DNA of 64,000 nt from Armatimonadota bacterium (GTDB lineage Bacteria; Sysuimicrobiota; Sysuimicrobiia; Sysuimicrobiales; Humicultoraceae). The stretch is from positions 1 to 64,000 of the forward strand of contig JAVHMA010000016.1 in NCBI GenBank assembly GCA_031081715.1. The letters run 5' to 3'. A program made the translations under genes and the position numbers. Shown piece after piece: positions 21,071 to 23,266 of this stretch. Below the pieces are notes generated by a model, which made no database searches, was not told the origin of the DNA, and was given only the letters and a program-made list of their open reading frames with translations. Positions within the stretch are counted from its first letter, which is position 1; each line of letters opens with the position of its first letter.

Positions 21071-22378
21071 CTACCGCGTCGCCGCGACGCCTGAAGGCCT
21101 CTGATCGCGGGTCAGGTCGAGTTCGACCTGGGCCGCCGCCGCGTGGGGCCGCATGCCCAGGCGGCGGAGTTGCACCATGGCAGCCTGGAGGTGCTCGATG
21201 GCCTCCTTCCGGCGGCCCTGCGCGCGCAGCACCTGGCCGAGTGTCATCGTGGCCACGGCCTGGCGTGACCGGTCCCCTGAGGCCCGCCCGAGCTCGATCG
21301 CGCGCCGCGCCGCCCGCGCCGCCTCGGCGAGACGGTTCATGGCCAGGAGCACCTGTGCCGTCTCGTCGGCCGTGGCAGCCAGCCCGCGCGCATCGCGCTG
21401 GCGCTCGCGCAGCCGCGCCGCCCGTTCGAGCACCGCGAGCGCCTCAGCGTAGAGTCCCTGCTCGCGCCGGATGAGCCCCAGGTTGCTGAGCACCCGGGCC
21501 ATTTCCGGCAGGTCCTCGTCCTGCTCGAACGCGGCGTAGGCCTGGCTGAAGACGCTCACCGCCTCGTCGAGGCGCTTGAGCATCCACTCCACCATGCCCA
21601 GGCCCGTGAGCGCCCTGCCGCGCATCCGCGGCAGGTGGAGCCGCGTGGCCACCGCGAGCGCCTGCCGGTAGGCGCGGCGGGCGCGCGCCGCCTGCCCGGT
21701 GCGACCGAAGGCCGCGGCGAGCGAGAGCAGCGCCCAGACCCCTTCCTCAGAGCGCACGGACGACGTCCGCCGCATGATGCCGAGCGCCCGCTGCAGGGTG
21801 GCGATTGCGGCCCGGTACTGCCCGCGGCGCTCGTCGATGACGCCGCGCAGCGCGAGCGCGCTCCCAAGCGCCCGGGCGTGTCGCGCCCGCCGTGCCAGCG
21901 CCGCGGCCTCGTTAGCGGCCACCGCGGCTTCACCCAGGCGACTCGCGGCCATCGCGACGCGGGCCCGGACCAGCACCGCGCGCGCCCGCATCTCGGGGGG
22001 GAGACCGCCGGCCAGCGCCCCGGCCGCGTCCGCCAGGCGCAGGGCCTCTTCGCCCCGCGTCGCCGGGTCGAGGAGCCACGCGAGGTGCAGCAGGTTGTGC
22101 GCGGTCTCGCGCCGCAGCTCGTCGGCGTCGAACAGCAGCGAGGCCACCGAGGTGTCGAGCCGCGAGGCCAGGCTGATCACCGTCTCGACCGAGGGGTACG
22201 AGCGCGCGCTCTCGAGCAGGCTGATGAAGCTCTTGTTCAGGTCCGGCGCGGCGAGCCGCTGCTGCGTGAGGCCGGCGCGGCCTCGGGCGAGCCGCAGGCG
22301 ATGCCCGAACTGCACCAGCCAGTCGGGGCGCGCCAGGGTGGTGCGGGACACGACCGTCGGGGAGGAGGGTTGAGCCAT
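21071..22378 (-). CDS. XRE-family regulator with TPR repeats (RRNPP-like architecture)
   Basis: A 435-residue protein. An XRE helix-turn-helix fills residues ~22-80 (GHRLRLARGRAGLTQQRLA, then NKSFISLLESARSYPS). About 300 residues of tetratricopeptide repeats follow, with signatures such as GEAAVAANEAAALARRA, GQYRAAIATLQRALGI and GLYAEALAVLERAARL. This layout is that of Rap/Rgg/NprR/PlcR-type receptors, whose TPRs bind a short secreted peptide. A gene for a 43-residue signal-peptide-bearing product sits 122 bases upstream on the same strand. The start ATG 22378 lies nine bases after a good sigma70 -10, so the mRNA may be leaderless. Other XRE-TPR proteins bind proteins rather than peptides. 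Confidence 0.88.
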   Translation of the reverse strand: MAQPSSPTVVSRTTLARPDWLVQFGHRLRLARGRAGLTQQRLAAPDLNKSFISLLESARSYPSVETVISLASRLDTSVASLLFDADELRRETAHNLLHLAWLLDPATRGEEALRLADAAGALAGGLPPEMRARAVLVRARVAMAASRLGEAAVAANEAAALARRARHARALGSALALRGVIDERRGQYRAAIATLQRALGIMRRTSSVRSEEGVWALLSLAAAFGRTGQAARARRAYRQALAVATRLHLPRMRGRALTGLGMVEWMLKRLDEAVSVFSQAYAAFEQDEDLPEMARVLSNLGLIRREQGLYAEALAVLERAARLRERQRDARGLAATADETAQVLLAMNRLAEAARAARRAIELGRASGDRSRQAVATMTLGQVLRAQGRRKEAIEHLQAAMVQLRRLGMRPHAAAAQVELDLTRDQRPSGVAATR

Positions 22379-22387
22379 AGTAAAGTG

Positions 22388-22416
22388 AGTGTAGCAGCGA
22401 ATCGGCGGGTGGGCAA
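22388..22416 (-). promoter_or_regulatory. Sigma70-type promoter of the XRE-TPR gene
   Basis: On the minus strand TTGCCC (22416-22411) and TACACT (22393-22388) are spaced by exactly 17 bases. The last base of the -10 lies 10 bases before the A of ATG 22378, so transcription would begin at or 1-3 bases before the start codon. No Shine-Dalgarno can fit, consistent with leaderless translation. Confidence 0.7.
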
Positions 22417-22500
22417 GTGAGGGTGCGAGAGCCCCTGGGTCCTCCCCCGCCGCGCGTCGCCGACCGGCCTCCCTCCTCCTCCGACCGCGTCTAGGTCAGG

Positions 22501-22632
22501 CTAGCCGCCGCCGGGAAAGTCGCCGTCGGCGACCTGCCTGGGGGTCAGGTCCGTCGGGGGGGCCACCGGGGTGGCCGCAACCAGCACAAAGGCGGCGATC
22601 GCCGCCATCGCCAGGCGAAGCAGCGTCTTCAT
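22501..22632 (-). CDS. 43-residue secreted peptide precursor beside the XRE-TPR regulator
   Basis: This small gene has an ideal GGAGGAGG seven bases before ATG 22632 and ends in TAG at 22501. Residues 1-20 (MKTLLRLAMAAIAAFVLVAA) are a textbook signal peptide. The remaining 23 residues (starting TPVAPPTDL, ending DFPGGG) are Pro/Gly/Asp-rich with no Cys. There is no second membrane segment and no domain, so it should be exported and perhaps processed. Neighbours are an XRE-TPR regulator downstream on the same strand and a receiver-domain gene divergently upstream. The size and position match the propeptides of RRNPP quorum-sensing systems. Function is inferred from architecture only. Confidence 0.75.
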   Translation of the reverse strand: MKTLLRLAMAAIAAFVLVAATPVAPPTDLTPRQVADGDFPGGG

Positions 22633-22811
22633 GGAGTTCCTCCTCCGGCACCAGGTGTGGGGGCTCTCGGCGTGGAAGGTTCGGGCCTACAATCACTAAT
22701 CCTGTCGAACAGAGGCTCGGGGTCCGCCCCGCGACCGCACCGTACCAACGGCAGCGCGCCCGGCGGGCTGTGAGACCTGGCGTTGGAGGCCATGCTCTTG
22801 CGAGTCTGATC

Positions 22812-22817
22812 TACAAT
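22812..22817 (+). promoter_or_regulatory. Candidate -10 element for the lone receiver gene
   Basis: TACAAT lies eight bases before a TTG (22826) and 14 before a GTG (22832) that could start the receiver gene; no Shine-Dalgarno is visible. The -35 region is weak. The flanking CTACAATC resembles CTACAATC at 22687-22694 and CTACACTC in the XRE-TPR promoter. Confidence 0.45.
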
Positions 22818-22825
22818 CTTTAGAC

Positions 22826-23266
22826 TTGGTAGTGGTGGGTAGGACACGCGCGGACGCCGGGCCGCCGGTGGTGCTCTACATCGAGGATGCCCTCTCGAGT
22901 CTGGCTCTCATCGAGCGGCTCCTGGAGCGCAGCGGCGTGACCCTGCTCACCGCCGCGGACGGCGCGACCGGCCTGGCACAGGCCCGCCATACCCCCCCGG
23001 ACCTGGTGCTCCTGGACCTCCACCTGCCCGACATGCCGGGCGAGGAGGTATTGAGCCGGCTCCGCGCCGTCCCGGAAACCCGCGCCACGCCGGTGGTGGT
23101 GATCAGCGCGGACGCCTCGCCGCGTCGCATCCGCGCGCTGCTGGGGGCCGGGGTCCTCGACTATCTGACCAAGCCCATCGACGTCAAGCGGCTGCTGGCG
23201 CTCTTCGACCAGGCGCTGGGCAGACCGATGACGCAGGAGGGCTTCCCCCGCTCCACCGAAGTCTGA
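22826..23266 (+). CDS. Single-domain response regulator (CheY-like receiver)
   Basis: About 146 residues, essentially a receiver domain: acidic pair in LYIEDA, phospho-acceptor in LVLLDLHLPDMPGEEVL, Ser/Thr in VVVISADA and Lys in YLTKPIDVKRLL. No output domain. The sequence is strikingly similar to the C-terminal receiver of the hybrid kinase at 19207-20421 (shared LLDLHLPD, GEEVL.RL, PETR, VVIISA/VVVISA, YLTKP), so the two are likely paralogues and may compete for phosphate. The start could be TTG 22826 or GTG 22832/22835; all lack a Shine-Dalgarno. Confidence 0.88.
   Translation: MVVVGRTRADAGPPVVLYIEDALSSLALIERLLERSGVTLLTAADGATGLAQARHTPPDLVLLDLHLPDMPGEEVLSRLRAVPETRATPVVVISADASPRRIRALLGAGVLDYLTKPIDVKRLLALFDQALGRPMTQEGFPRSTEV

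Follow-up and report, generated by a model that had tools for sequence, protein, structure and literature searches.

A conserved pairing of small signal-peptide genes with XRE-TPR receptor genes in Candidatus Sysuimicrobiota that probably works like RRNPP signalling

The stretch of DNA analysed here (the window, 64 kb) belongs to a genome of Candidatus Sysuimicrobiota (CSP1-3/ANGP1), an uncultured soil and hot-spring phylum, and this genome amounts to 3.0 Mb in 49 contigs. The phylum holds one class and one order (PMC11604079). On the minus strand of the window, a small gene (P0001) precedes the gene of an XRE-TPR regulator (P0002), and the locus contains the following features.

21071..22378, minus strand: XRE-TPR receptor/regulator P0002, 435 aa (Pfam and AlphaFold2 model)
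22142..22297, minus strand: XRE helix-turn-helix domain of P0002, residues 28–79 (Pfam HTH_3)
21107..22126, minus strand: TPR superhelix of P0002, residues 85–424 (Pfam TPR families; AlphaFold2, mean pLDDT 92)
22501..22632, minus strand: 43-codon precursor peptide gene P0001, stop included (sequence, and orthologues in genomes G003 and G005)
22639..22646, minus strand: perfect Shine-Dalgarno sequence GGAGGAGG, 6–7 nt upstream of the P0001 ATG (from the sequence)
22573..22632, minus strand: predicted Sec signal peptide, residues 1–20 (MKTLLRLAMAAIAAFVLVAA), with a putative cleavage site (by eye and hydrophobicity scan)
22504..22533, minus strand: candidate mature signal VADGDFPGGG, C-terminal, with putative mature ends (orthologue comparison)
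22660..22668, minus strand: GAGAGCCCC, 5´ arm of a possible inverted pair around the peptide gene (strong in several related loci)
22427..22435, minus strand: GGGGCTCTC, 3´ arm in the peptide-receptor spacer (block largely conserved in three orthologues)
22688..22701, plus strand: TACAATCACTAATC, motif 5´ of the peptide gene, possible promoter or operator (partly conserved in G003)
22812..22825, plus strand: TACAATCTTTAGAC, second copy of the TACAATCACTAATC motif, just before a divergent response-regulator gene at 22826

The product of P0001 is MKTLLRLAMAAIAAFVLVAATPVAPPTDLTPRQVADGDFPGGG (minus strand, 22632..22501), in which a basic N-terminus is followed by a hydrophobic segment and a Pro/Gly-rich tail. 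The gap between the end of P0001 and the ATG of P0002 is 122 nt, with both genes on the minus strand. An earlier sequence-only reading had described a 43-codon gene with an ideal Shine-Dalgarno sequence at this distance 5´ of the receptor and on the same strand, which agrees with the sequence, and a signal peptide with a Pro/Gly-rich tail, on which the hydrophobicity scan and the reading by eye concur. In two other genera, the closest orthologues of the receptor (genomes G003 and G005) are preceded by a small frame at the equivalent place, and the tail of the G005 orthologue reads VADGDMGGG(L) where that of the window reads VADGDFPGGG.

P0002 scores far above the Pfam cut-offs for TPR_12, TPR_2 and TPR_1 and slightly below the cut-off for HTH_3 (22.3 against 23 bits). 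The AlphaFold2 model shows a regular superhelix with nine helical pairs across residues 85–424, in agreement with the TPR repeats that had been read from the letters. Both size and architecture are of the RRNPP type (about 250–500 aa, a peptide-binding-type TPR part and an N-terminal HTH). The PDB fold matches of the model include the Rap-CSF and PlcR-PapR-DNA complexes (E about 1e-6), ranking below the best matches, which are generic peptide-binding TPR proteins (LGN). Profile comparison also places generic TPR families best, with RapF at E 2.3e-12, and profile searches of the Pfam/NCBIfam type with RRNPP-specific family models gave no match to the receptor. Of the Asn/Arg residues that hold the peptide backbone in the groove of RRNPP receptors, an Asn (N299) is present in P0002, although Asn at this position is also a common TPR consensus residue. 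It occurs in 22 of 42 peptide-linked receptors and in 3 of 34 others, a count confounded by phylogeny, and is replaced by Gln or Ala in two peptide-less sister paralogues (contig C14 of the window genome; G005). Because of the consensus, the pattern is only a lead. The C14 paralogue (G000:C14:132713-134044) is 49% identical to P0002, has no peptide gene beside it and may, as an orphan, respond to the peptide of the window.

To follow the pair beyond the window, 84 XRE-TPR genes were collected from the order and from named contigs of Ca. Sysuimicrobiota. A strict filter accepted ORFs of 28–95 codons within 500 nt upstream if a Shine-Dalgarno sequence preceded them, if the encoded N-terminus was basic with its first 18 positions free of acidic residues, and if a strongly hydrophobic segment was present. 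Such an ORF is found in 37 of the 84 upstream windows, or 36 once the false match at locus L109, a membrane-protein-like ORF, is dropped, compared with 0.69 expected from the background in the same loci (0.0082 strict ORFs per 500-nt window). No downstream window of the 84 genes contains one. A relaxed reading adds eight clear cases and brings the number of pairs to 44; in 42 of these the receptor is near full length. The spacer from peptide gene to receptor gene ranges from about 0 to 280 nt, and the genes around the pairs vary among loci, so the pair itself is the unit. The small frame is kept beside orthologous XRE-TPR genes across many genera and families; its loss there had been named beforehand as grounds for abandoning the proposal.

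For about 40 of the 84 receptors no peptide gene could be recognised, even when the loci were re-read loosely, and a few of them have too little upstream sequence to judge. On the receptor tree the presence of a peptide is clustered, with about 11 changes compared with 25 in shuffles. In the clade of the motif GHG[GD]GELL and its relatives, 14 of 15 receptors have a peptide gene; for the remaining one the sequence extends only 20 nt upstream. Orphan receptors form some clades of their own, among them that of the C14 paralogue. In the window genome, C36 and C12 each carry one peptide-receptor pair and C14 an orphan receptor. Two observations concern other neighbours. Several peptide-less XRE-TPR genes lie near the gene of a secreted protein of one related type, about 150 aa long and cupredoxin-like by eye, which is upstream at L024, L028, L100 and L103 and on the other strand at L021, L076, L077 and L111. 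In the AGHGDG clade, a second, shorter XRE gene is convergent to the receptor, about 2.5 kb beyond it (G000:C12:36644-37459, minus strand; L195, L196 and L197).

The precursors themselves are repetitive. Among the 42 that are paired with a full-length receptor, 18 contain an exact repeat of at least 7 aa, which occurs in none of 200 shuffles of each sequence. The repeated motifs are 7–18 aa long and present in two to five copies per precursor, for example AGDTWPGGG and AGDVGPGQNG (two copies each), AGHGDGELL (three or four), GHGDGELL, and GDDNGPGAVYGLPPLVPQ, of which there are as many as five copies, one of them altered. Candidate tail peptides of the family include VADGDFPGGG, AGDVGPGQNG and AGHGDGELLNGG. 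Copies within one precursor are identical in amino acids and often diverged at synonymous positions (8 of 11, 7 of 9 and 6 of 9 codons), which indicates that each peptide copy is under selection, unlike the products of a recent DNA duplication; G002, with three identical copies, looks as such a duplication would. Pooled pN/pS for the precursors is 0.43, from 18 close-homologue pairs that partly overlap and are not all independent. The motif GHGGGELL directly follows the signal peptide in three genomes and is C-terminal in three others, while the rest of the precursor differs and the receptors at these loci are sisters. By these sequence comparisons the putative pheromone segment is under selection, most clearly in the multi-copy clades and more weakly for the single copy of the window.

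The more distant two receptors are, the less alike are their peptide tails (r -0.74; none of 2000 permutations gave so low a value). The partial correlation of tail similarity with TPR distance is -0.51 when HTH distance is controlled for (0 of 1000 permutations), and that with HTH distance is -0.07 when TPR distance is controlled for. The comparable partial correlation of the signal peptide is weaker (-0.23). A co-variation of tail and TPR part is seen, with the tail following the TPR domain and hardly the HTH. This correlation is support rather than proof, because shared descent contributes to it and because the TPR domain, being longer, gives a less noisy distance than the HTH.

At E 1e-40 or better, a profile of the receptors matched 34 of the 43 genomes of the order and none of 209 genomes outside it; within the order, those without a strong match are seven f4 genomes, G012 and the incomplete G041. 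Searches of plasmid and phage collections with the window receptor found no match, which speaks against an origin from a mobile element or phage. The window genome encodes two signal peptidases I, as well as the outer-membrane assembly protein Omp85. Among control genomes, Omp85 is present in outer-membrane or outer-sheath organisms and absent from Bacillus and Lactococcus, which suggests that cells of the window organism probably have an outer membrane. Every one of the 43 genomes of the order encodes oligopeptide-binding proteins (SBP_bac_5), the window genome at least 35 of them, so the potential for oligopeptide ABC import is present in the order. These proteins are very numerous there: many genomes have at least 35, and first-look candidates reach 149 in one.

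We consider it probable that the window pair belongs to a phylum-wide peptide signalling family that works like RRNPP. The small gene would encode a pro-peptide exported by the Sec pathway, from which signal peptidase and other proteases would release a short Asp/Gly/Pro-rich peptide, in the window probably within VADGDFPGGG. Oligopeptide ABC transporters would return the peptide to the cell, where it would occupy the TPR groove of the adjoining XRE regulator and alter the binding of this regulator to DNA, including its own locus. Such autoregulation, and a regulon for the pairs, are predicted. The RRNPP-type pair that the sequence-only reading had proposed gains support from the conservation of the small frame, the multi-copy precursors and the co-variation of tail and TPR part. 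At the level of sequence, the working likeness of the family to RRNPP is well supported, because the two share a working plan. We counted against it the roughly 40 of 84 receptor genes that have no peptide, the best fold matches, which are of the LGN rather than the RRNPP type, and the outer-membrane assembly protein gene, since an outer membrane may be an obstacle to a peptide of 9–18 aa passing between cells.

With the XRE members of RRNPP/RRNPPA (PlcR-PapR, NprR-NprX, PrgX, Rgg-SHP and ComR-ComS) the family has in common a receptor of XRE HTH and TPR, a small precursor ORF adjoining on the same strand, and the presence of oligopeptide importers; PlcR-PapR7-DNA is among the fold matches of the window receptor. 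It differs from the RRNPP systems of Bacillota in belonging to another phylum, with an outer-membrane protein gene, in a TPR part nearer to generic TPRs, in its Asp/Gly/Pro-rich peptides and in the many multi-copy precursors. Several pheromone copies per exported pro-peptide, kept by selection, have been described for the tandem pro-peptides of Rap105-Phr105 and Rap3T-Phr3T (PMC11343458). These multi-copy exported precursors under selection are a likeness to the family here. In contrast to these two systems, the receptor here has an XRE domain, which Rap proteins to our knowledge lack as they do any DNA-binding domain, and some loci have three to five near-exact peptide copies. The TPR part also scores against the NCBIfam model of NsdA, a TPR regulator type of Actinobacteria (25.7 and 54.6 bits, well under the curated cut-off of 75 bits); we know of no peptide partner of NsdA-type regulators.

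As far as our literature search reached, accounts of RRNPP signalling come from Bacillota such as Bacillus and Streptococcus. Two large surveys deal with Firmicutes/Bacillota and the mobile elements of these bacteria (PMC10075063, PMC9765709); the large-scale search in the literature was confined to Firmicutes and viruses. Our literature search for RRNPP systems in phyla other than Bacillota found no report, with many journals outside its coverage. If the reading is right, intracellular sensing of peptide pheromones extends, at large scale, to an uncultured phylum that branches deeply and probably has an outer membrane. Since comparison marks the mature peptides in multi-copy precursors directly, dozens of receptor-ligand pairs are testable, and the orphan receptors are natural controls for them. 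The chances are about even for a more specific view, namely that bacteria with an outer membrane have evolved, separately and across a whole phylum, a peptide-hormone system in which each XRE-TPR receptor has a private, often multi-copy pro-peptide, a genome holds several different pairs, operator-like inverted sites flank the peptide gene, and the receptor thereby controls both genes.

Other explanations account for parts of these data. Inside the RRNPP-like reading, with the molecular steps in common, lies a variant in which the peptide is exported, trimmed and re-imported by the same cell and reports the state of secretion or growth instead of population density; the Omp85 gene and the many oligopeptide-binding proteins of the genome fit such a periplasmic self-signal, to which we give a real though minor chance. 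It is quite unlikely that the small gene encodes a secreted product (a bacteriocin, RiPP precursor or surface peptide) and that the adjoining XRE-TPR protein does no more than regulate it. Some RiPP precursors do carry multi-copy cores and bacteriocin genes are often under the control of XRE proteins, but no modification, immunity or transporter genes recur beside the pairs, and this absence of recurrent neighbours speaks against a RiPP or bacteriocin cluster. Moreover, it is the TPR part with which the tail co-varies, and hardly the DNA-binding domain, a pattern more in line with recognition of a ligand than with control of a promoter.

A secretion-monitoring leader of the SecM/MifM/VemP type, whose signal peptide engages Sec while a C-terminal motif stalls the ribosome and so changes expression of the downstream regulator, with no signalling peptide, would explain why a signal peptide and conserved Pro/Gly-rich C-terminus are encoded upstream of the regulated gene and in its orientation, together with the inverted arms that flank the ORF in several loci. 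Such a leader would carry a single arrest motif at a set place, whereas the motif here varies from one to five copies and in its position, with a spacer of 0–277 nt to the receptor gene. Repetition two to five times, and a place directly behind the signal peptide at a long distance from the stop codon, are not what an arrest motif needs; the tail also tracks the TPR domain. We regard this mechanism as very improbable. Chance frames are scarcely credible: spurious ORFs abound in high-GC genomes, but the upstream enrichment, the synonymous divergence of the repeats and a pN/pS below 1 rule out a chance origin for the family as a whole.

The probable RRNPP-like control may be reflected in elements around the peptide gene. 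In two f7 clades an operator-like GCCGTTCGGC or GGCCGTCCGGC stands ahead of the peptide gene (L110, L112, L202, L201, L033, L113, L174, L179 and L186). Most of these loci carry the element a second time, inverted, in the spacer that leads to the receptor gene, and it is strongly enriched near receptors. Inverted arms with other sequences are present in other clades. In the window itself the inverted pair is weak, as 25 of 200 shuffles are as good. The arms could be binding sites of the receptor or the arms of a long-range RNA stem around the peptide ORF; the GCCGTTCGGCGG pairs looked operator-like at first, and the same places also form inverted arms able to pair as RNA. An Rfam search of the locus for a known RNA element gave no match. 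The receptor had also been credited with its own promoter, which the window does not bear out, as no sigma-70-type promoter was found there for P0002; a promoter-like block is conserved in the peptide-receptor spacer of another clade. The motif TACAATCNNTARNC has exactly two matches in the 64-kb window (22688-22701 and 22812-22825) compared with 0.09 expected, and these two copies suggest shared control of the peptide gene and the divergent response-regulator gene.
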